Assembly (NCBI RefSeq): GCF_021028995.1
Contig: NZ_JAJJZG010000002.1
Span: 124,001-188,000, forward strand
DNA: 64,000 bases
Source: Halobacterium sp. KA-4
GTDB lineage: Archaea; Halobacteriota; Halobacteria; Halobacteriales; Halobacteriaceae
Reading direction: 5' to 3'
Shown here: positions 5,043-64,000 of the stretch, one piece after another
How the letters are laid out: every line of letters begins with the position of its first letter
How positions within the stretch are numbered: position 1 is the stretch's first letter
The notes under the pieces: generated by a model
Databases searched by the model: none
Told to the model about the DNA's origin: nothing
The model's input: the letters and a program-made list of their open reading frames with translations, nothing else
Made by a program: the position numbers and the translations under genes

Positions 5043-5208
5043 CGCGACCACTCCTTTCTGCGACCGCGCGTGACCCGGAGCCGCCGCTATCCAGCGAAAC
5101 GTCGAAAGAAAATCGCGAGTAGTCAGCCGACGGTGCAGCGCGGCGGAACGGGAGCATCCGGCGACCGGAGGTCGCCGGTTCACAGCGCGCGAAGCGCGCT
5201 GGCCCCGA

Positions 5209-5239
5209 GGACCCCCGAAGTGGGGTCCACGGGGCTTTT
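5209..5239 (+). terminator. Stem-loop plus T-run downstream of lrp
   Basis: A 7-bp GC stem (GGACCCC paired with GGGGTCC, loop of 6 nt) is followed within 7 nt by a run of five T. It lies in the convergent gap between lrp and the thermosome gene. A second GC palindrome, GCGCGCGAAGCGCGC at 5185-5199, precedes it. Confidence 0.5.
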
Positions 5240-5246
5240 TAGCGTA

Positions 5247-5301
5247 GCTTTTTCCCAGCGAACGAGGGCGCGGTAGCGCCCGAGTGAGTGCAGGAAAAAG
5301 G
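5247..5301 (-). repeat. Dispersed 3' repeat element, copy E (short, diverged)
   Basis: Read on the minus strand, the element begins 3 nt after the thermosome stop with CCTTTTTCCTGC and ends with GGGAAAAAGC, so its ends are inverted copies of each other. It resembles the longer copies at 16937, 24807 and 37813 in its T-rich start, its CTC/GCGC-rich middle and its GGGAAAAAG end, but it lacks their distal part. Confidence 0.55.
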
Positions 5302-5303
5302 TA

Positions 5304-6968
5304 CTACATCATCCCGCCCATGCCGCCGCCCATGCCGCCTGCGGGGCCGCCGGCACCGCCCTCGTCACCCTTGTCGGTGGAGAGGTCGCCGGCGGAGATG
5401 ATGTCGTCGATTTTGAGCACGAGGTTCGCGGCTTCGGAGGCGCTCGTGACGGCCTGCTCTTTGGCGTGTGCGGGCTCGACGACACCGGCTTCGAAGGTGT
5501 CCTCGAGGTTGCCGGAGAGCACGTTGAGGCCGGTGCGTTCCTCGCCGGATTCGTGCGCGGAGCGCAGGTCGACGAGCGTGTCGATGGAGTCGAGGCCGGC
5601 GTTCTCGGCGAGCACGCGCGGCACGAGTTCCAGGGAGTCCGCGAACGCTTCGACGGCGAGCTGTTCGCGGCCGGAGACGGAGTCCGCGAAGTCGCGGAGC
5701 CGGTCGGCGACTTCGACTTCGATGGCGCCGCCGCCGGGGAGGACGCGGCCGTCGCTGAGCGTCTGCGCGGAGACGTCGAGCGCGTCAGTGACGCCGCGTT
5801 CGAGCTCGTCGACGACGTGTTCGGTGGAGGCGCGCAGGAGGATGGTGACGCCGTGGGCGTCCTCGTCGTGGCCCTCGACGTAGAAGAGTTCGTCCTCGCT
5901 GTCGCGGGAGATAGAACCGCTGGCGACGTTGGCTGCGGTCGCGGAGTCGAGGTCCGTGACGACTGCCGTGTTGAGGACGTTCGTCAGGAACTCGATGTCG
6001 GACTTCTTGGTGCGACGGATGGCGAGGATGCCCTCCTTCGCGAGGTAGTGCTGGGCCATGTCGTCGATGCCCTTCTGACAGAAGACGACGTTCGCGCCGG
6101 TGTCGACAATCTGCTGGACCTTCTGCTTGAGCTGCTCCTCTTCCTGGTCGAGGAAGGACTGGAGCTGGTCGGGGCTCTCGATGTTGACCGAGGTGTCGGC
6201 TTCGGCTTCCTCGACTTCGATGGCCTCGTTCAGCAGGAGGATTTTGGCGTCCTCGACGTCCGTCGGCATCTCGTCGTGGACCGGGTCCTTGTCGATGGCG
6301 GCACCGACGAGGAGCTCGGAGTCACCGACCGCGCGGCCGGTCTGGGTCTCGACGTTGATGTTCGCGGCGTCGACGACGGTGCTGCCGTCGGCGGCCTCGA
6401 CGGAGACCTGATTGATGGCGTCGTAGATGATGCCGGAGAGCAGCTCCTTGTCGAGCTCGGCGCCCTTGCCGGTCATGGAGGTCTCGGCGACGCTGCGGAT
6501 GAGGTCCTCGTCCTCGGGGTCGACGTCGATGGCGACGTTGTCGACTTCCTCGCGGGCCTGCTCGGCGGCGAGGTTGTAGCCCTTGATGATGGCGGTCGGG
6601 TGGATGTCGCGCTCGAGGAGGTCCTCGGCGTTCTTGAGGAGTTCGCCCGCAATGGCGACCGCGGTCGTCGTGCCGTCGCCGGCCTCGTCTTCCTGGGTTT
6701 CGGCGACTTCGACGATCATCTCCGCGGTCGGGTTGTCGATGTCCATCTCCTGGAGGATGGTGACGCCGTCGTTCGTGATGGTGACGTCGCCCATCGAGGA
6801 GACGAGCATCTTGTCCATCCCTTTCGGGCCAAGTGTGGAGCGGACGGCGTCCGCGACGGCTCGCGCCGCGGAGATGTTGTGCTCCTGAGCGTCCTTGTCT
6901 TTCACGCGCTGTGCGTCGTCTCCCATGATGATCATGGGCTGCCCCTGCATCCGCTGTTGTTGTGCCAT
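5304..6968 (-). CDS. thsA: Thermosome (group II chaperonin) subunit
   Basis: A 554-residue subunit of the hexadecameric archaeal chaperonin, which refolds proteins with ATP. Visible motifs are GPKGMDKM near residue 48, the ATPase motif GDGTTTAV near residue 97, and [10 protein letters not shown] near residue 410. The C-terminus is a Gly/Met-rich tail ([11 protein letters not shown]) that points into the folding chamber in this family. A strong TATA box (TTTTATATAG on the minus strand, 7004-6995) lies about 30 nt upstream of the ATG. Haloarchaea carry two or three paralogues, so the exact subunit name is uncertain. A dispersed repeat begins 3 nt after the stop. Confidence 0.96.
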
Positions 6969-15602: not shown

Positions 15603-15890
15603 CTACTCTAGTCGGCGGTAGAGCCGGTAGGCAGCGCCGGCGGTGAAGGCGAACGTCGCGAGCAAGCCGACCGTGAACGCGAGCACGGCGGCCAGCGCGA
15701 CCAGGTACGGCGTCGAGTACGGCGACCCGCCCGACGCCACGACGAAGAAGTAGTACGTCGCGACGGCGACCAGCAGGCCGACCGCGAACCCGCGTTTCGC
15801 CTGCGTCACGACGCCGAGCGCGCGCACGAAGTTGTCGACGCCGGGGCGGTCGGACGCCGCGTCGGCGGACTGCTCGGACCGCTCGGACAT
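15603..15890 (-). CDS. Small two-span membrane protein, 95 aa
   Basis: Not recognised. A hydrophilic N-terminal part (about 30 residues) is followed by two membrane segments, GFAVGLLVAVATYYFFVVAS (about 34-53) and YLVALAAVLAFTVGLLATFA (about 62-81), and a basic C-terminus YRLYRRLE. The ATG at 15890 is chosen over the longer frame because the upstream extension overlaps the likely promoter of the divergent gene at 15976. It may share a transcript with the frameshifted gene downstream (50 bp away). Confidence 0.7.
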   Translation of the reverse strand: MSERSEQSADAASDRPGVDNFVRALGVVTQAKRGFAVGLLVAVATYYFFVVASGGSPYSTPYLVALAAVLAFTVGLLATFAFTAGAAYRLYRRLE

Positions 15891-15975
15891 ACACGGGGGT
15901 TGGCTGTGGCACGTGAAAACGTCGCCGATTCCGGGACCGAACCGCTCAAGGCCACGCGTGCGTGGGATTACTGTA

Positions 15976-16932
15976 ATGACTACGCTCGGCACGGCGTCCG
16001 CGGACCCCGGGGAGTTCGACACCGGTCGGCTCACCGTGGGCGAGATGCGGGACGGCACCGCAGTCGGCCTCCCGGTCGCGGTCGTGAACGGCGAACGCGA
16101 CGGCAAAACCCTCTACCTGCAGGCAGCCAGCGACGGCGACGAACTGAACGGCGTCGGCGTGCTCCGCCGCGTCGTCCCCCAACTCGACCCCGCGGAGCTC
16201 GCGGGCGAAGTGCGCGTCGTCGGCATCACGAACTTCCACGCGTTCCAGGTCGCCGAACACCGCAACCCCATCGACGACACGAAACTCAACCGTGCGTACC
16301 CCGGCAGCGCGAACGGCTCCTCCTCCGAGCGCATCGCACACGCCACGTTCTCCGCCGCCGAGGACGCCGACCTCATCCTCGACCTCCACCAGGGCTCGAC
16401 CTCCCGCATGATTAACGAGGTGCGCGTGCGCTGCGGCCGCCACCACCGCCTCCACAGCGACTGCCTCGAACTCGCGAAGGCGTTCGGCTGCGGGCACGTC
16501 CTCGACCAGAAAGGCCCCGAAGGCCAACTCGCACGTGCCGGCCCCTCCGAAGGCATCCCCACCGTCGACCCCGAACTCGGCGGCGCGGTCGGCTTCGACG
16601 AGGAATCGATCCAGTACGGCGTCGACGGCGTCTTCAACGTCCTCCGCTACTACGGCCTCCTCGACGGCGACGTCGAGACCGAACGCCAGACCCGCGCGAA
16701 GGACTTCGACCGCTACGGCTCCCCCGTCGGCGGCATCGTCGAGTACAAACAGGACCTCGGCGACGACGTCCGCGCCGGCGACACCCTCTTCGAAGTCACC
16801 GACGTCTTCGGCACGCTCAAAGCCACCGTCACCGCCGACAACCACGGTATCTTCTGGCGAAGCCGTCGCCTCCCACAGGTCGCCACCGGCGAGTACGTCT
16901 GTTCGGTCGGAACGGACGTGGATTCTTTCTAA
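15976..16932 (+). CDS. Succinylglutamate desuccinylase/aspartoacylase-type (M14-like) deacylase
   Basis: A 318-residue zinc-carboxypeptidase-fold protein. Family members remove acyl groups from amino acids or related small molecules. Seen: a region corresponding to the first zinc motif reads ASDGDELNG, where a His-Gly-Asp-Glu would be usual; the second ligand region is LILDLHQGST; GIVEYKQDLGDDVRAGDTLFEV near residue 252 is a small biotinyl-like beta domain at the C-terminus typical of the family. The His-to-Asp change means catalysis or the metal ligand may differ. A dispersed repeat begins 4 nt after the stop. Confidence 0.82.
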   Translation: MTTLGTASADPGEFDTGRLTVGEMRDGTAVGLPVAVVNGERDGKTLYLQAASDGDELNGVGVLRRVVPQLDPAELAGEVRVVGITNFHAFQVAEHRNPIDDTKLNRAYPGSANGSSSERIAHATFSAAEDADLILDLHQGSTSRMINEVRVRCGRHHRLHSDCLELAKAFGCGHVLDQKGPEGQLARAGPSEGIPTVDPELGGAVGFDEESIQYGVDGVFNVLRYYGLLDGDVETERQTRAKDFDRYGSPVGGIVEYKQDLGDDVRAGDTLFEVTDVFGTLKATVTADNHGIFWRSRRLPQVATGEYVCSVGTDVDSF

Positions 16933-16936
16933 CCCA

Positions 16937-17090
16937 CTTTTTCCAGCGCTCGGCGCGCTACGCGCGCCGTCGCTTGCAAAAACTTGGGAAAAAGCACTCC
17001 TCACCCCCTCCGGGGGTTCGTCGGCCTCCGCTCCCTCGCTATGCTCGGTCGCGGAGTGAATCGCGCAGCGGAGCCGCGCGAATGCTCGTT
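16937..17090 (+). repeat. Dispersed 3' repeat element, copy B
   Basis: The element begins with CTTTTTCC 4 nt after the stop of the M14-like gene. The order is: T-rich start, GCGCTCGGCGCG palindrome-like core, CGCTTGCAAAAACTTGGG, AAAAAGCACTCCTCACCCCC, a C5/G5 hairpin, TCGTCGGCCTCCGCTCCCTC, and a tail ending GCGCGAATGCTC. CTTTTTCC and GGGAAAAAG are inverted with respect to each other and could form a long stem. The middle section is almost identical to copy C at 37813, and most of it to copy D at 24807. Confidence 0.75.
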
Positions 17091-24806: not shown

Positions 24807-24983
24807 GGAGCATCCGCGAGCGAGCGGTCTGAAAGACCCGAACGAAGTGGTTCACTCTGCGACTGAAAGAAGTGAGGGAGCGGAGGCCGACGACTGAGGG
24901 ACGCGAAGCGGACCGAAGGAGGAGTGCTTTTTCCGCAAGTTTTTGCAAGCGAACGCGCCGCAGGCGCGTTCGCTTGCAAAAAG
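24807..24983 (-). repeat. Dispersed 3' repeat element, copy D
   Basis: On the minus strand it starts 2 nt after the CarS stop with CTTTTTGCAAGCG, includes the palindrome GCGAACGCGCC/GGCGCGTTCGC, then GCTTGCAAAAACTTGCGG, AAAAAGCACTCCTC, and TCGTCGGCCTCCGCTCCCTC, ending near GGATGCTCC. It shares the order of blocks with copies B and C. It is longer, with extra sequence between CTCCTC and TCGTCGGCC. It occupies most of the 242-bp gap between carS and pyrE. Confidence 0.75.
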
Positions 24984-24985
24984 TG

Positions 24986-25531
24986 CTACCAGGGCTCGTT
25001 CTTCAGACCGAGCAGATAGGCGATGCCGTTGGTGACGACGTGGAGCAGCGGCGTGAGGACGAGGATGGCGACGACGACATCGAGGGTGAAGATGGCGTCG
25101 AACCAGGCGGGGGCGGCGACGGCGGCGAGTGCGAGCGCGACGACGACGAAGTCGAGTTGGTCGAGGAGGGGGAAGGCGGCGCCGCGTTCGCGGCCGGTGC
25201 GACGTTTGAGGAAGGAGGCGAGGATGTCGCCGAGCATCGCGCCGGCGGGGAGCGCGACCATCGCTGCGGGCGGGAACGAGGGGAGTGTGACGCCGAGTGC
25301 GTCGCTGGCGGCTGGTTCGACAGTGTTCAGGACGAACGCGAGCGCGACGCCGGCGAGCACGCCGATGGCGGTGCCGCGCCACGTCTTCCCGTCGCCGAGC
25401 ACGCGCTTGCCGCCCCACGTGCGGCCGCCGTCGATGGGGCGGCCGCCGCCCGCCAGCACCGCGGCGTTGTTCGGCACGTACGCGGGCAGCATCACCCAGA
25501 CCGCAGTCGCGACCGTCGCTACGAGACCCAT
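24986..25531 (-). CDS. carS: CDP-archaeol synthase
   Basis: CarS activates digeranylgeranylglyceryl phosphate with CTP, the committed step towards archaeal phospholipids. The 181-residue integral membrane protein has about five hydrophobic segments and the family motifs [11 protein letters not shown] (residues about 16-26), [14 protein letters not shown] (about 40-53), [19 protein letters not shown] (about 100-118) and LLDQLDFVV (about 121-129) with conserved Asp residues for Mg2+. All conserved elements are present. A dispersed repeat starts 2 nt after the stop. Confidence 0.93.
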
Positions 25532-26509: not shown

Positions 26510-27112
26510 ATGACCTCGTGGAAGCGGGACTTCGCGAGCGGGCTCATCGTGCTCGCACCGATTCTGGTCACGCTGTACGTTCTCTACTGGCTGTTCTCGC
26601 TCATCGCGCGATTTTCGCTGCTGGCGACGAACGTCGACGACCCCGTCGTGGCGGTCAGCCTGACGGTCGTCATCTTCGTGTTGCTGGTGTTCTCCGTGGG
26701 GTACCTGATGCGGACCGCGCTCGGCACGTTCGCGGAGGAGGTGCTGGACGACCTCATTAACCGGCTACCGGGGCTGCGCATCGTCTACAACGCCTCGAAG
26801 ATGGCCGTCGAGACGGTGCTGTCGGGCGGCGCCGACGAATTCCAGAAGCCCGTGAAGGTTGAACCGTGGGAGGGGATGCGCCTCACCGCGTTCAAGACGG
26901 GGAAGACTACCAACGACGGCCGCGAGGTGGTGTTCATGCCGACCGCGCCGAACATCACCTCGGGGTTCGTGATGGAACTGGAACCCGAGGACATCATCGA
27001 GGTCGAGGAGTCCACGGAGGACGCCCTGACGCGGGTGCTCTCGGCGGGGTTCGGGGAGAACGAGCGTGACGTCCCGGAGCCGTTCACCGACGACAAGGAC
27101 GAACAGGAGTAG
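26510..27112 (+). CDS. DUF502 family membrane protein
   Basis: A 200-residue protein with two membrane spans (about 9-32 and 45-70) and a soluble C-terminal domain, the layout of the DUF502 family (LIVLAPILVTLYVLYWLF; INRLPGLRIVYNASKMAVE; FMPTAPNITSGFVMELE). The function of the family is not established; it is found in bacteria, archaea and plants. I prefer the ATG at 26510 to the GTG at 26498 because of the TATA spacing. Confidence 0.88.
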   Translation: MTSWKRDFASGLIVLAPILVTLYVLYWLFSLIARFSLLATNVDDPVVAVSLTVVIFVLLVFSVGYLMRTALGTFAEEVLDDLINRLPGLRIVYNASKMAVETVLSGGADEFQKPVKVEPWEGMRLTAFKTGKTTNDGREVVFMPTAPNITSGFVMELEPEDIIEVEESTEDALTRVLSAGFGENERDVPEPFTDDKDEQE

Positions 27113-36555: not shown

Positions 36556-37806
36556 ATGAGCGAGCAGGAGGGCGCACCGTCCGAGGACCGCCGAAAGTAC
36601 GAGTTCCAGAAGGTCATCGAGGACCTGAAGGACTACACCGGGAGCGGCACCCAGCTGGTGACCATCTACATCCCCCCGGACAAGCAGATTTCGGACGTCG
36701 TCGCCCACGTCACGCAGGAACACTCCGAAGCCTCCAACATCAAGTCCAAGCAGACCCGGACGAACGTCCAGGACGCACTCAAGTCCATCAAGGACCGCCT
36801 CCGGTACTACGACACGTTCCCGCCGGAGAACGGCCTCGTCGTCTTCTCCGGTGCCGTCGACACCGGCGGCGGCCGCACGGACATGGTGACGGAAGTGCTC
36901 GAATCGCCGCCCCAGCCCATCGAGTCGTTCCGCTACCACTGCGACGACGCGTTCCTCACCGAGCCCCTCGAGGAGATGCTCGGTGACAAGGGCCTCTACG
37001 GGCTCATCGTCCTCGACCGCCGCGAAGCCAACGTCGGCTGGCTGAAGGGCAAACGCATCGAGGCTGTCAAGTCAGCGAGCAGCCTCGTCCCCGGCAAACA
37101 GCGCAAGGGGGGGCAGTCCGCACAGCGGTTCGCCCGCCTCCGCCTGGAAGCCATCGACAACTTCTACCAGGAGGTCGCCGGGATGGCCGACGACCTCTTC
37201 GTCCCGAAGCGCCACGAGATCGACGGCATCCTCGTCGGCGGCCCCTCCCCGACGAAGGACGAGTTCCTCGACGGCGACTACCTCCACCACGAACTCCAGG
37301 ACTCGGTGCTCGGGAAGTTCGACGTCTCCTACACGGACGAATCCGGCCTGAAGGAACTGGTCGACCGCGCCCAGGACACGCTCGCGGAAGCCGACCTGAT
37401 GGACGACAAGTCCGACATGGAGACGTTCTTCAAGGAGCTCAACGGCGGCGACCTCGCCACCTACGGCTTCGAGCCCACGCGCAAGAACCTCGTCATGGGC
37501 TCCGTCGAGACCCTGCTTATCTCCGAGGACCTCCGCAAGGACATCGTCACCTACGAATGTCCCAACGGCCACGAGGAACGCGAACTCCTCGGCCAGCGCG
37601 CCGACACCCCCGAACACACGTGCACGGAGTGCGGCGACGACGCCGAAGTCGTCGAACGCGACGACGCCATCGACCACCTCATGGAAATCGCGGACAACCG
37701 CGGCACGGACACCCACTTCATCTCCACCGACTTCGAGAAGGGCGAACAGCTGCTCACCGCCTTCGGTGGGATTGCCGGGCTGCTACGGTACGGCACGGGC
37801 GTCTAG
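36556..37806 (+). CDS. prf1: Peptide chain release factor aRF1
   Basis: The archaeal release factor that recognises all three stop codons. The 416-residue protein has the N-terminal stop-codon domain with NIKSKQTR (residues about 61-68), the catalytic GGQ in KGGQSAQRFARLR (near residue 181) and a C-terminal domain with a zinc-binding Cys-rich part (CPNGHEERELL ... CTECGDDAE). A TATA-like GTTACTTA lies about 29 nt upstream. A dispersed repeat starts 6 nt after the TAG stop. Confidence 0.96.
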   Translation: MSEQEGAPSEDRRKYEFQKVIEDLKDYTGSGTQLVTIYIPPDKQISDVVAHVTQEHSEASNIKSKQTRTNVQDALKSIKDRLRYYDTFPPENGLVVFSGAVDTGGGRTDMVTEVLESPPQPIESFRYHCDDAFLTEPLEEMLGDKGLYGLIVLDRREANVGWLKGKRIEAVKSASSLVPGKQRKGGQSAQRFARLRLEAIDNFYQEVAGMADDLFVPKRHEIDGILVGGPSPTKDEFLDGDYLHHELQDSVLGKFDVSYTDESGLKELVDRAQDTLAEADLMDDKSDMETFFKELNGGDLATYGFEPTRKNLVMGSVETLLISEDLRKDIVTYECPNGHEERELLGQRADTPEHTCTECGDDAEVVERDDAIDHLMEIADNRGTDTHFISTDFEKGEQLLTAFGGIAGLLRYGTGV

Positions 37807-37812
37807 AACCCA

Positions 37813-37914
37813 CTTTTTCCTGCGCTCGGTCGCTGACGCTCCCTCGCTTGCAAAAACTTGGGAAAAAAGCACTCCTCACCCCCTTCGGGGGTTCGTCGGC
37901 CTCGCGGATGCTTG
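37813..37914 (+). repeat. Dispersed 3' repeat element, copy C
   Basis: Starts 6 nt after the aRF1 stop with CTTTTTCCTGCGCTCGG and continues CTCGCTTGCAAAAACTTGGG, AAAAAAGCACTCCTCACC, CCCTTCGGGGG (hairpin) and TCGTCGGCCTCGCGGATGC. Nearly identical over the middle to copy B at 16937. Beyond it (37915-38006) is ordinary intergenic DNA with the promoter of the next gene. Confidence 0.75.
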
Positions 37915-38347: not shown

Positions 38348-38398
38348 CTACGCCAGCGGCGTCCGCTCTACCACTTGGCTGTCGTACGTCGGGTACTG
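38348..38398 (-). pseudogene. Duplicated 3' end of the radical SAM gene
   Basis: On the minus strand this segment encodes DQYPTYDSQVVERTPLA followed by a stop, almost the same as the C-terminus EQYPTYDGQVVERTPLA of the complete gene ending at 38535. About 41 of 47 bases match between the two copies (roughly 38351-38397 and 38538-38584). No start or upstream domain is present. It is separated from the intact gene by the repeat at 38411. Confidence 0.75.
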
Positions 38399-38410
38399 GT
38401 CAGACCCACC

Positions 38411-38531
38411 GTTTTCCCGCTCGGGTGTCCTCGCTCCGCTGCGGGCACCTCTCGCGGCAAAACCCTGGACGAAAAACACCTCGTCCTCGCTGCGCTCGGA
38501 CGAGCGAATCGCGCCTCCGGCGCGAATGCTC
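38411..38531 (+). repeat. Dispersed repeat element, copy F (diverged)
   Basis: Shares a T-rich start (GTTTTCCCGCTCGG) and distal blocks with copy B: CTCGCTGCGCTCGG, GAATCGCGC and GCGCGAATGCTC. The central CTTGCAAAAACTT block is replaced by a diverged CGGCAAAACCCTGGACG. Unlike the other copies it does not directly follow a stop codon in its own direction; it lies between the intact and the duplicated 3' ends of the radical SAM gene. Confidence 0.5.
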
Positions 38532-38534
38532 CAC

Positions 38535-39530
38535 TCAGGCGAGCGGCGTCCGCTCGACAACCTGCCCGTCGTACGTCGGGTACTGCTCGACGATTTCGCC
38601 GCTGTCGATATCGCCCTCCTCGACCATCTCTTCGAGAATCCACCACGCCACCTCGACGTGGTTGGACTTCACCGTGTAGAACTCCTCGGGGACGCCGAGT
38701 TCGCGGATGCGCTGGGGGCTGACGGTCGTCTTCCCGTAGACGAGCGTGCCGTCCTCGGTGACGTCGTCGAACTCCCGGCGGACGTTCCGCGCCATGCGCT
38801 TCAGGCGCGAGCGGTGCTGGGCGGCGTCCTTGAAGACGCTCGTGCAGAAGTACACCTTCTCGTGGTCGGCCATCTCTTCGAGGATGGCGTCCTTCGAGCC
38901 GTCGACGGCGCTCATGTGGTCCTCTTGGAGTTCGTAGCCGGCGTCCTGCATACGCTCGTAGTTGCCGTCGCTCATCTCGAACTCGTTGACGTTGCAGAAG
39001 TCGGCGGCTCCCTCGTCGAGGAAGTCGAGGAACTCCTGCTCGGCGCGGATGCCGGGAATCTCGAACGCCGGGGTCAGACCCTCCTCGCGCGCAATGTACA
39101 GAATCTCCTCCCACTCGGTGCCGTGGAGGTCGCCCCACTGCTCGTACGGCGGGTGGAAGCGAATCTCGTCGAGGCCAGCCTCCGAGAGGCGGCGCATGTT
39201 CTCGCGGCCGCCCGTGATGCCCGTGTAGAGGTGTGTGTGGTGGTCCTCGCCGAATTCGTCTTTCAGCAGGCGGAGGTACCGGCACGTGCGGTCGAGCACT
39301 TCCTGGGGCTCGCCGCCCGTAATCGAGGTGCCGAGCGCGTCCATCAGCTTCGCTTCCTTGACGATGTCCTCGTCGTCCTCGACGGGACGCTCGTTAGCGT
39401 ACACCTGCTGGACGTTCTTCCGGTTCTCGCCCAGCGGGCAGTAGAAGCAGTCACGCTGGTCGCAGTACCCGTAGACGAAGAGCACCATCTTGCCGCCCTT
39501 CGCGCACTGCTCGCAGCCCTTCGAAATCAT
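38535..39530 (-). CDS. Radical SAM protein of unknown substrate
   Basis: A 331-residue radical SAM enzyme. The N-terminus has a Cys pair CEQC (6-9), then VLFVYGYCDQRDCFYCPLGE with a CX4CX2C arrangement (Cys residues near 22, 27 and 30) instead of the common CX3CX2C. GTSITGGEPQEVLDRT near residue 67 is the GGE motif. TGITGGRENMRRLSEAGLDEI follows (in parts: TGITGGRENMRRLSEAGLD). The family is conserved in haloarchaea; substrate unknown. ATG at 39530. Its C-terminus is found again at 38348. Confidence 0.88.
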   Translation of the reverse strand: MISKGCEQCAKGGKMVLFVYGYCDQRDCFYCPLGENRKNVQQVYANERPVEDDEDIVKEAKLMDALGTSITGGEPQEVLDRTCRYLRLLKDEFGEDHHTHLYTGITGGRENMRRLSEAGLDEIRFHPPYEQWGDLHGTEWEEILYIAREEGLTPAFEIPGIRAEQEFLDFLDEGAADFCNVNEFEMSDGNYERMQDAGYELQEDHMSAVDGSKDAILEEMADHEKVYFCTSVFKDAAQHRSRLKRMARNVRREFDDVTEDGTLVYGKTTVSPQRIRELGVPEEFYTVKSNHVEVAWWILEEMVEEGDIDSGEIVEQYPTYDGQVVERTPLA

Positions 39531-39618
39531 TCGTTGGAACACCTCTACTCCCCGAGGGCTGAAAAACTGTGCGAATCCAACTGGACGTACGTCCGACTCG
39601 GTGTGCGCTCCCGAAAGC

Positions 39619-60400: not shown

Positions 60401-62466
60401 CGGAACTGCTCGACCGAGAGGTCGTCGGTGAGGCGGACAGTCCCGTCGACGAGCACCGGGATACCCGAGTCTGCGAAGAACTCGTCTAGTGCCGACTGCG
60501 GGAGCGTCGTCTCCCGGACCGACGCGTCGTAGACGGCCGAGGACGTGTCCGTGTGCGAGTACGCCGACATCCCGCCGATGCCGCTCTTCCTGTGTGGGTA
60601 GTGATGGAGGGACACTGGCCACGCCCCGGATGCTGCCCGGACGGCGTCGGTGTCGAATTCGTGGAGAATGGAGACGTTGGAGTGGCTCTGTCGAACGTTG
60701 CTCTGCCCGTCGCCGAGAATCGTGTACCGGTCGGCCGGCGTGCCGGCGAGTTCGAGCGCGTCGAGAATTCCGTACAGCGGGAACCCAACGCCGAGGAGAG
60801 TCGCCGCCATTTCGCCGACTGACCGCGCATCGTCGTCGGCCACGTCGTCTACCGTGACGAAGCCGCCGGCAGCGCCGGCAGTCAACAGCGCGCGGCCCTG
60901 CTCGTAGGAGCGACAGCCGTTCAGGAAGAACGCCTTCACGCCCGTTCGCGCCAGCGTTCGGGTGTCGAGCGCCCCGTCCGGGCACATCATCCCCGAGTCC
61001 GTGACGTGGCCCACGAAGTGGAAGTAGTCCACGTCCTCGTACAGCGCCTCGCGTAGCTCCGCCGTCGACAGGTCGTGGGACACCCGCACGTCTGTCTCCC
61101 GGTACGGGTGCGAGTCGAACAGGGAGACGTCGCCCTGCTGGAGTCGGGCGTCGTTGAACACGACGTGGACGTCGAGCGCGCCGTCGTCAGCCGACGCCGA
61201 GAGGTCCCGTCGGAACGACCCCACCGTCGGGTTCGACGCGCGGACCGCGTGCCCGGGTGCGACCCACGAGTGGCCGGGCGTCTCGGCGTCCTCCGGCACG
61301 ACCACCGAGCGCGGCGTCGGCGCTGCCGTGCTCGCGGACCGTGCGAGCGCGCCGTCCGTGGACTGGAGCGCGTTCGGGGACGGCGTCAGGTCGACCTCCG
61401 AGGCCTACCGCGGCGGACTCCGCACCAGCGCCAGGTCGTCGAGCAAATAGGGGAGCACCGGTGCGTACGCCGAGTCCGCTTCGACGTCCGCCGTGTAGTG
61501 CCAGTCGAGCAATCCTTCCGTCGCCGAGCGCGGAATCTCGAGGTACTCGGCCGTGCGCTCGGCCAGCGGCAGCTCGAACAGCCGCTGGTAATCCAACTCC
61601 ACGCGCTCCTCCAACGCCGTGACGACTGTCGTCCGGAACGGGTAGACGCCAGCTGTCCGCACCGCGCAGTCCAGCGTGAACACGTGCTCCAGTATCGACC
61701 GCACGCTCTCGGCGAGGGCGTCGACACAGAGGTCGCGGCTGCGGCCGGCGGCGACCAGTCGCGGGCGGTTCCCCGGTTCGACGGTGGCACCGAGGTAGTA
61801 CGCCAGCGGCGCCACCGTGTAGATGGCCCCGTACGCCGGCGGTACCTCGATGCGCACTCCCGTCTCCGGGGGCGCGACCTCCGGCGGGATATTCAGCGTA
61901 TCTCCTCGCTCGATGGCCGGCGGATGGCCCCGTAGCGTCGGCCACGACCGATCCGGTGACTCCGTCTTCAGCGCCGACCCGAACGTCGACACCGCAGCCA
62001 TCAAATCTCGTGGGTCGTCCGTCGTCGTCACCGTCCCCGCCGGCGTCTCGTGGTGCGACCGAATCCCGAGCACCATCCGCGTCGCGGCCTCCGTCTCGAG
62101 AACCGACCGACCGTCGTCGAAGCGAGTGGTCGGTGCGGCGTCCTCGACGCGCACGTAGAGCTTCGCGTCGGGCGGCGAGAAGTCGACCTCGTAGGTGCCT
62201 CGCGGCAGTCGCTCGGCGGACTCCTCGGACTCGGGGCGGTGGACGGCCTCACCGTCGCGCCAGAAAATCACGTCGACGAACGTCGGCATTCGGAGTTCGC
62301 GCGCTTCGACGGCGACCGTCGCGTCGACGGGCATCGTGAAGCCGTCAGTCGACGCCGGCGTCGGGTCGACGGCCCGGTCCGTGTACAGCGGGAACTGCTC
62401 GCCCTCGACGGTGTCCCGGACGCGGAGCCCGTGCTCGTCGTCGAGTACGTCGACGTGGATCGTCAC
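60397..62466 (-). pseudogene. CHAT-domain protease-like protein with in-frame TAG
   Basis: One 690-codon frame starts at GTG 62466 and ends at 60397 but is interrupted by TAG at 61407-61405 (codon 354). Residues about 1-353: N-terminal domains of unknown function (VDFSPPDAKLYVRVEDAAP; PPAYGAIYTVAPLAYYLGAT). After the stop: CHAT caspase-like domain, with His487 in YFHFVGHVTDSG and Cys518 in FFLNGCRSYEQGRALL, the expected dyad. In the paralogue at 62557 the interrupted codon is CAG (Gln), so the TAG looks like a C-to-T change. Without read-through, only the N-terminal half would be made. Confidence 0.82.
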
Positions 62467-62556: not shown

Positions 62557-64000
62557 TCACTCGAAGTCCGCCATCGTCAGGTTCGAGGTGTACCGGAGTT
62601 CGCCGTCGAGTATGATGGGTATCGGAGAGGTGTCGAGCAGCCGTTCGAGTTCCGAGTACGGGGTCGGGTTGCGACGAGTACGACCGTCGGCGATGACTCC
62701 ATCGACAGCGGTGTACGAAGGAACGACGAACGAGCCCATCCCGTTCTCGTCGTAGGGATACTGTTGGACAGTCACCGAGGCAGTGTCGGAATCGGCGTCA
62801 AGCTCGTCAGTGTCGAAGTCGTACATCACCGGGGTTCCACCTGGGTCGCGACGGAAGGCGAGCGTCCCACTCCCGAGAATCGAGTAACGCTCTGCAGGCA
62901 TTCCCGTTCGGTCGAGCACGTCCAGCACCGCGTACAACGGGAATCCGCTGTCCAACAGCAACGAGATGTCGTGCCCGACCCGCCCCGCCACGTCGTCGGC
63001 CACGTCGTCGACCGTGACGATACCCCCGACGCTCCCCGCGGTTAGCAGCGCGCGCCCCTGCTCGTAGGACCGGCACCCGTTCAAGAAGAACGCCTTCACG
63101 CCCGTCCGCGCCAGTGTTCGGGTATCCAAGGTCCCGTCCGGACATACCATTCCGTTGTCGGTGACGTGGCCCACGAAGTGCAGGAAGTCAGTCTCCTCGT
63201 ACAGCGCTTCCCGGAGTTCCCCCGTCGTCAGCGAGTACGACACGCGGACGTTCGTCTCCGCCGTCTGGTGAGTATCGTACGCGGTTTCGTCGCTGGCGTC
63301 CAACCGTGCGTCGTTGTACACCACGTGCACGTCCAGCGGGTCGTCGCCCTGCGGCCAGTCGAACCCACGCCGGAACGACCCCACCGTCGGATTCGCCGCG
63401 CTCGGCGAAAAGTCGCCCGCGACCCACGAGCGACCGGGCGTCTCCGTGTCCGACGGAACGACACCCGAGAGCTGCGTCAACGTGGTGTCCGTGGCCGAAC
63501 GAGCGAGCACACCGTCGCCCTCCTGGAGCGCGTTCGGGGAGGGCGTGAGGTCGAACTGTCCGGACTGTTGGGGCGGACTCCGTACGAGCGCCAGCCGGTC
63601 TACGACGTACGGCAGCGCGGGCGCGTACGCCGGGTTTGCTGCTACGTCTGCCGTGTAGTGCCACCCCAGAATTCCCTCGGTTGCCGACCGTGGAATATCG
63701 AAGTATTCGGCCGTCCGTTCGGCCAGCGGCAACTCGAACAGCGCCTCGTAGTCTAACTCCACCCGTTCCTCCAGCTCGTCGACGGCAGTCGTTCGGAACG
63801 GGTAGACGCCCGCTACTCGGACGACGCAGTCCAGCGTGAATACGTGCTTCAGGAACGTCCGCACGCTCTCCGCCAAGTCGTCCACGTCTAAGTCTACGCT
63901 CTGCCCGTCCGCGACCACCCGCGGCCGATTCCCCGATTCGACAGTCGCGCCGAGGTAGTACGCCAGCGGCGCCACCGTGTAGATGGCGCCGTACTCCGGC
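62557..64000 (-). CDS. CHAT-domain protease-like paralogue, N-terminus outside window
   Basis: The visible 480 residues have no interruption. They align along their whole length with the neighbouring gene: YGAIYTVAPLAYYLGATVES at the window edge, FELPLAERTAEYFDIPRSAT, and the CHAT core with His in FLHFVGHVTDNG (63168-63166) and Cys in FFLNGCRSYEQGRALL (63075-63073). The dyad spacing (31 residues) is the same in both copies. CHAT proteases are caspase-like peptidases; in bacteria several serve in immunity or regulated cell death. Reading frame remains open at 64000. Confidence 0.88.
   Translation of the reverse strand, partial: PEYGAIYTVAPLAYYLGATVESGNRPRVVADGQSVDLDVDDLAESVRTFLKHVFTLDCVVRVAGVYPFRTTAVDELEERVELDYEALFELPLAERTAEYFDIPRSATEGILGWHYTADVAANPAYAPALPYVVDRLALVRSPPQQSGQFDLTPSPNALQEGDGVLARSATDTTLTQLSGVVPSDTETPGRSWVAGDFSPSAANPTVGSFRRGFDWPQGDDPLDVHVVYNDARLDASDETAYDTHQTAETNVRVSYSLTTGELREALYEETDFLHFVGHVTDNGMVCPDGTLDTRTLARTGVKAFFLNGCRSYEQGRALLTAGSVGGIVTVDDVADDVAGRVGHDISLLLDSGFPLYAVLDVLDRTGMPAERYSILGSGTLAFRRDPGGTPVMYDFDTDELDADSDTASVTVQQYPYDENGMGSFVVPSYTAVDGVIADGRTRRNPTPYSELERLLDTSPIPIILDGELRYTSNLTMADFE

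Follow-up and report, generated by a model that had tools for sequence, protein, structure and literature searches.

Comparison with known 3'-end repeats and terminators

The REP/BIME elements of enterobacteria are dispersed palindromes near stop codons which form hairpins and are thought to affect both termination and mRNA 3' ends, and the DUS/USS terminators of Neisseria and Haemophilus are dispersed repeats of one family that also serve as 3'-end stem-loops. Among haloarchaea, Haloquadratum walsbyi harbours short, transposase-free palindromic repeats, i.e. PATEs, SMRs and MITEs, the PATEs stemming from IS605-type ends (PMC3119063), and in Haloferax volcanii a T stretch is an experimentally confirmed terminator with an efficiency of 95 %, such terminators being intergenic 3' T-tracts with hairpins nearby in some cases (PMC7237163).

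Here we describe a dispersed hairpin repeat of 100–200 nt, found in dozens of copies in many haloarchaea, which resembles these systems in part. Like REP/BIME, it consists of dispersed extragenic palindromes by gene 3' ends, but it is common to most of an archaeal order, occupies fixed orthologous sites, carries a T-tract at the stop codon as well as TC/TC internal loops, and showed no detectable dependence on a Y1 transposase. In contrast to DUS/USS, it has no known uptake role and its hairpin sequences are variable, the linkers alone being conserved. It lies off the tested IS605-type loci and mostly behind housekeeping genes, which sets it apart from the PATEs, and it differs from the H. volcanii terminators in having the tract embedded in a conserved repeat of 100–200 nt that also carries hairpins in a distal array. 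No Rfam family matched at gathering score or at E<1, and a search of open-licence papers found no earlier description of the family.

Copies in the analysed window and anatomy of the element

The window, i.e. the whole stretch of 64 000 nt of Halobacterium sp. KA-4 DNA analysed here, had been proposed by a sequence-only reading to contain four copies. All four are present, but the extents given were too short, the covariance model R1 yielding larger ones (R1 and alignment A1 were built from 15 copies and R2 is a broader model; the E-values of both are rough, coming from a short calibration).

The first copy is a full element on the plus strand (16934–17088; R1 E=1.2e-30) and follows an M14-like deacylase gene (ORF 15832–16932, plus strand; stop codon TAA at 16930–16932). 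Its T5 tract (16938–16942), located 5 nt past the stop codon, is a putative termination signal matching the H. volcanii T-stretch motif (PMC7237163). The tract opens hairpin A (16938–16993), which includes the A5 tracts 16978–16982 and 16989–16993 and whose base stem covaries across genera. According to alignments A1 and A3, GCACTCCTC, hairpin C (ACCCCCTCCGGGGGT) and TCGTCGGCC follow at 16994–17026, and alignment A1 places hairpin D, GTGAA, hairpin E and a terminal ATGCT at 17027–17086. The second copy, likewise a full element, lies on the minus strand after carS (24807–24986; ORF 24986–25531; R1 E=1.6e-37), the first base of the element being the final base of the TAG stop codon. The third, on the plus strand after aRF1 (37810–37914; stop codon TAG at 37804–37806; R1 E=5.2e-17), lacks hairpins D and E. 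The fourth, after a thermosome subunit gene on the minus strand (ORF 5304–6968, stop codon at 5304–5306), had been delimited as 5247–5301, whereas it is in fact a full-length copy of a divergent subtype spanning 5151–5303 (minus strand; R1 E=3.3e-4).

As predicted, the copies are oriented like their upstream genes and the T5 tract comes right after the stop codon, at a distance of 3–7 nt rather than the 2–6 nt first given. The proposed pairing of the element's start with an inverted GGGAAAAAG is borne out in copies of the TTTTTCC type (16934 and 37810); in the carS copy, the partner of TTTTTGC is the first A-tract (GCAAAAA). A displaced fifth copy, suspected near 38411, proved real but weak: it is a divergent element of the GACGAAAAACACC subtype on the plus strand (38402–38530; R2 match 38405–38521, E=0.036), with the layout of the other copies and no stop codon directly before its start in its own direction. 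A 50-nt direct repeat (86 % identical; 38352–38401 and 38539–38588) brackets this copy and corresponds to the 3' terminus of ORF 38535–39542 on the minus strand, giving the appearance of a duplicated gene end divided by the copy. Partial R1 matches at 27041 and 8080 apparently lie within coding sequence and were discarded. Elsewhere in the window, long direct repeats at 60815–61633 and 62975–63793 (75–77 % identical, 2160 nt apart) are probably tandem paralogous genes.

The general layout runs from the stop codon through a T4-5/A4-5 palindromic hairpin A, AAAAGCACTCCTC, hairpin C, GTCGTCGGCC, hairpin D, GTGAA and hairpin E to ATGCT. A few bases past the stop codon, hairpin A comprises G-C-A-C-T4/5-G-C, a variable hairpin and GCAAAAACTTGC, followed by GGAAAAAGCACTCCTC and hairpin C; an example of the base in other families is CGAAATTTTGC...GCAAAATTTCG, with ATC-AAAAGCACTCCTC after it. 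Hairpins D and E are absent in some copies (L015, L018), and others carry additional hairpins (L010, L017). All 48 copies of alignment A3, drawn from many genera, have a T4-5 tract at the base, so that the T-rich coding-strand tract soon after the stop codon that characterizes archaeal T-tract terminators is found throughout. This tract forms part of the stem's 5' arm, and the A-tracts are T-tracts on the other strand.

Copy number and distribution

The sequence-only reading had proposed a dispersed family and had considered its shared blocks too conserved for chance, and both points were borne out. In the 3.34 Mb genome of Halobacterium sp. KA-4 (G000), R1 finds 33 matches at E<1e-4. GGAAAAAGCACTCCTC with up to two mismatches matches 23 times genome-wide, compared with once for its reversed control, and CGCTTGCAAAAACTT with up to three mismatches occurs six times in the window against 0.3 expected, a count reached in none of 100 shuffles. 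The other shared blocks named earlier are present too, but TCGTCGGCCTC is unremarkable as a bare word: with up to one mismatch it matches 45 times in the window against 8 expected, an excess that is probably mostly coding codon bias, the word being meaningful inside the element only.

Within the genus, 11 of 12 other species harbour 17–48 matches each, and G006 has none; this genome is 99 % complete and possesses Y1 transposase genes, making it a natural comparison strain. Across the order, R2 detected the element in 232 of 293 genomes and 64 of 78 genera, in a scan restricted to genomes at least 90 % complete and in which the top per-genome value stands for at least 13 copies. Among named genomes, Halomarina halobia has 54 copies, Natrinema zhouii 26, Haladaptatus pallidirubidus 11, Halospeciosus flavus 9, Halovivax sp. 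3 and Haloferax denitrificans 2, and similar copies occur in named Halobacterium records and on some haloarchaeal plasmids. A viral origin was rejected, there being no match among phage records. On the Natrinema thermotolerans plasmid CP031304.1, a copy (L271:2501-2624) lies right after the gyrB stop codon, between gyrB and gyrA.

Position relative to genes

The copies are anchored to stop codons: 27 of 30 in the KA-4 genome start between −1 and +5 nt from the stop codon of a same-strand open frame of at least 80 codons, compared with 5.8 % of random positions, and the number rises to 28 after re-reading L042, whose start had been mis-set and whose true start also follows a stop codon. L047 adjoins a tRNA gene, downstream of it. 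The upstream genes are mostly housekeeping genes, such as those encoding EF-1 beta, AdoMet synthetase, AdoHcyase, Cdc6, TatC, DnaJ, RadA and ferredoxin oxidoreductase. Of the 30 copies, 19 are followed by a convergent gene and 11 by a co-directional one (window baseline 28 of 66 convergent, p=0.026), and a promoter would mostly fit in the gap before a co-directional neighbour. Tail-to-tail pairs of copies about 25 nt apart, apparently one per gene of a convergent pair, were seen in G012 (contig C2, 210254–210436 on the plus and 210461–210635 on the minus strand), G001 (C1, 345284–345467 plus, 345492–345670 minus) and G010 (C1, 1691414–1691588 plus, 1691613–1691795 minus).

Fixed sites, changing hairpins and the question of mobility

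Most species of the genus keep the element behind aRF1 and carS, with differing hairpins. At these orthologous sites the hairpins resemble one another no better (mean identity 0.63–0.64) than randomly chosen copies of the genome do (0.60–0.67), whereas the adjoining coding ends are 85–96 % identical between species. Behind aRF1, G010 retains a clean deletion derivative; behind carS, G004 retains the distal part alone. In the closest species, G011, 16 of 22 sampled copies stand behind genes whose orthologs in G000 likewise have one, with a mean whole-element identity of 0.75 (0.79 for the next 80 nt, 0.64 for paralogs). The sites are thus inherited and the hairpins replaced; the distal chain of two to three hairpins may be swapped among copies by recombination, with linkers, TC/TC loops and site held constant.

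It is tempting to regard such a family as a non-coding mobile repeat of the REP/MITE kind, tolerated or favoured behind stop codons, whose hairpins are one-strand transposase sites and whose effect on termination is secondary. We consider this rather unlikely, although it is the strongest of the alternatives. The element is indeed a dispersed, multi-copy hairpin repeat with its structure on one strand, it is present or absent between species, and transposase-free repeats are abundant in haloarchaea (PMC3119063). Moreover, Haloterrigena and relatives harbour a derivative of about 160 nt (157–174 nt) whose copies are 95–99 % identical between unrelated flanks, i.e. L225, L226 and L227 in Haloterrigena alkaliphila (G283) as well as L228–L232, and whose TIR-like ends CGGTAACTACAG/CTGTACTTACCG lack a clear target duplication; no such ends were seen in stop-anchored copies. 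On the other hand, sites are common to species and the anchoring to stop codons is in one orientation. Whole-element identity within the KA-4 genome reaches 0.89 at most (mean 0.64), which indicates no recent burst; a MITE with near-identical copies was rejected on the same grounds, the Haloterrigena derivative alone fitting that description. Carriage inside larger IS elements was also discarded, the near-identical copies of G283, G209 and G206 sharing only those approximately 160 nt.

Y1 transposase was undetected in the copy-rich genomes G012, G007, G017 and G046 and is present in the copy-free G006; Y1_Tnp was likewise undetected in the further carriers G003, G004, G005 and G019, so that a RAYT-dependent REP was rejected. 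None of the 35 IS605-type loci of the KA-4 genome (5 TnpA and 30 TnpB) gave a match at E<0.05, which speaks against a PATE-like, IS605-derived element in this genome. The same genome has 43 TnpB (Cas12f1-like TNB) matches and only 5 Y1 TnpA.

Stem covariation and a strand-specific mismatch code

The long stem foreseen by the sequence-only reading shows strong compensatory change. Scored on 48 copies that span many genera, the base stem reaches a covariation score of 0.294 (0.090 when shuffled) with 70 double-change cells, G-U intermediates are very scarce and the signal fades when partners are slid. The raw alignment gave no informative RNAalifold result, the variable hairpins being misaligned.

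Beyond the base stem, 150 copies contain 359 triloop hairpins with 3069 Watson–Crick pairs and 266 two-base internal loops. In 228 of the 266, the gene strand reads TC/TC, which is tandem GA/GA on the opposite strand, and GA/GA on the gene strand does not occur among the loop classes listed for these copies; in random genomic sequence the two are nearly equal (31 and 25 of 345). GNA triloops show the same bias, with 191 on the opposite strand and 49 on the gene strand, and the opposite strand folds more stably in 144 of 160 copies under RNA parameters and in 143 under DNA parameters. Few features of DNA hairpins are as stable as tandem sheared G-A pairs and GNA triloops, which RNA can form as well. 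The mismatches identify the opposite strand as the one that folds, which disfavours the small RNA from the gene strand that had been considered for the distal half. This signature is the same whether the neighbouring gene is convergent or co-directional. That speaks against its serving convergent transcripts, and a terminator dedicated to such transcripts was rejected.

The code of the distal array points to a folded template strand, either as single-stranded DNA or as antisense RNA. The latter would be a structured transcript ending at the T-tracts GGAGTGCTTTTT and GCAAGTTTTTGC and regulating or protecting the gene's 3' end. The opposite-strand order, i.e. E, D, C and then two T-tracts, would suit it, as does the higher stability of that strand as RNA. 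Conserved RNAs would however be expected to look different: G-T and A-C single mismatches make up only 0.5 and 0.7 % of stem pairs, compared with 8.2 % G-U in haloarchaeal tRNAs from the same loci, a contrast somewhat overstated by a hairpin finder stricter than the tRNA count. Considering also the lack of an Rfam match, we judge such an antisense RNA decidedly improbable. Together with the equal signature beside co-directional genes, the scarce G-U intermediates favour DNA over RNA, without proving it. Least credible by far is an attC-like recombination site, single-stranded, folded on the bottom strand and marking exchangeable gene cassettes behind stop codons, since the copies, for all their likeness to integron cassettes in stop-codon anchoring, fixed orientation and bottom-strand folding, are dispersed behind syntenic core genes instead of arrayed and, judged by eye alone, have no consistent GTTRRRY core at their ends.

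A candidate terminator and insulator module

On balance, we lean towards a 3'-end module combining T-tract termination, two-way insulation and a recombining hairpin array with a folded opposite strand. The earlier suggestion of a terminator-linked family agrees with the copies genome-wide, the stop-codon anchoring, the T-tract, the covarying stem and the housekeeping genes upstream, but the classical form of a stem followed by a U-tract does not apply, the T-tract being part of the 5' arm; this position suits archaeal T-tract termination. Since the T stretch is a terminator in haloarchaea (PMC7237163), the most likely role of the proximal part is to terminate the transcript at the stop codon: RNA polymerase would halt at the T4-5 tract a few bases downstream, leaving an mRNA with nearly no 3' UTR. 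Because the tract lies within a palindrome with matching A-tracts, a polymerase arriving from the other side would meet T-tracts as well, which makes two-way insulation plausible. Against the module stand G003 and G006, which do without the element behind aRF1 and carS, and an annotated plasmid copy of the Haloterrigena derivative, which lies between divergent genes and not after a stop codon.

Considering that a T-tract alone suffices in archaea, termination can do without the distal part of 80–150 nt. The body of the repeat is constructed for folding on the strand opposite the gene, and no known terminator accounts for that. The distal part may have been retained because the template strand folds stably via tandem G-A pairs and GNA triloops, and the folded strand, most likely single-stranded DNA or antisense RNA, could be bound by a protein or stall the polymerase. 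A bolder version, in which these are order-wide gene-end elements whose template-strand DNA hairpin array, folded through tandem sheared G-A pairs and GNA triloops and the target of a dedicated protein, ends or insulates transcription in place of an RNA hairpin, seems to us doubtful at present.

Implications

The ends of archaeal transcription units and the roles of unannotated 3' repeats are a poorly known field. The family is unusual in being an order-wide repeat, mostly behind housekeeping genes, in which hairpins are replaced wholesale and a one-strand mismatch code (TC/TC, i.e. GA/GA) is nevertheless kept. Annotation would gain as well, the elements having been left blank in the plasmid records inspected. 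With this family, 3'-end formation in archaea, selection acting on DNA secondary structure and the exchange of palindromes between loci become open to direct testing.
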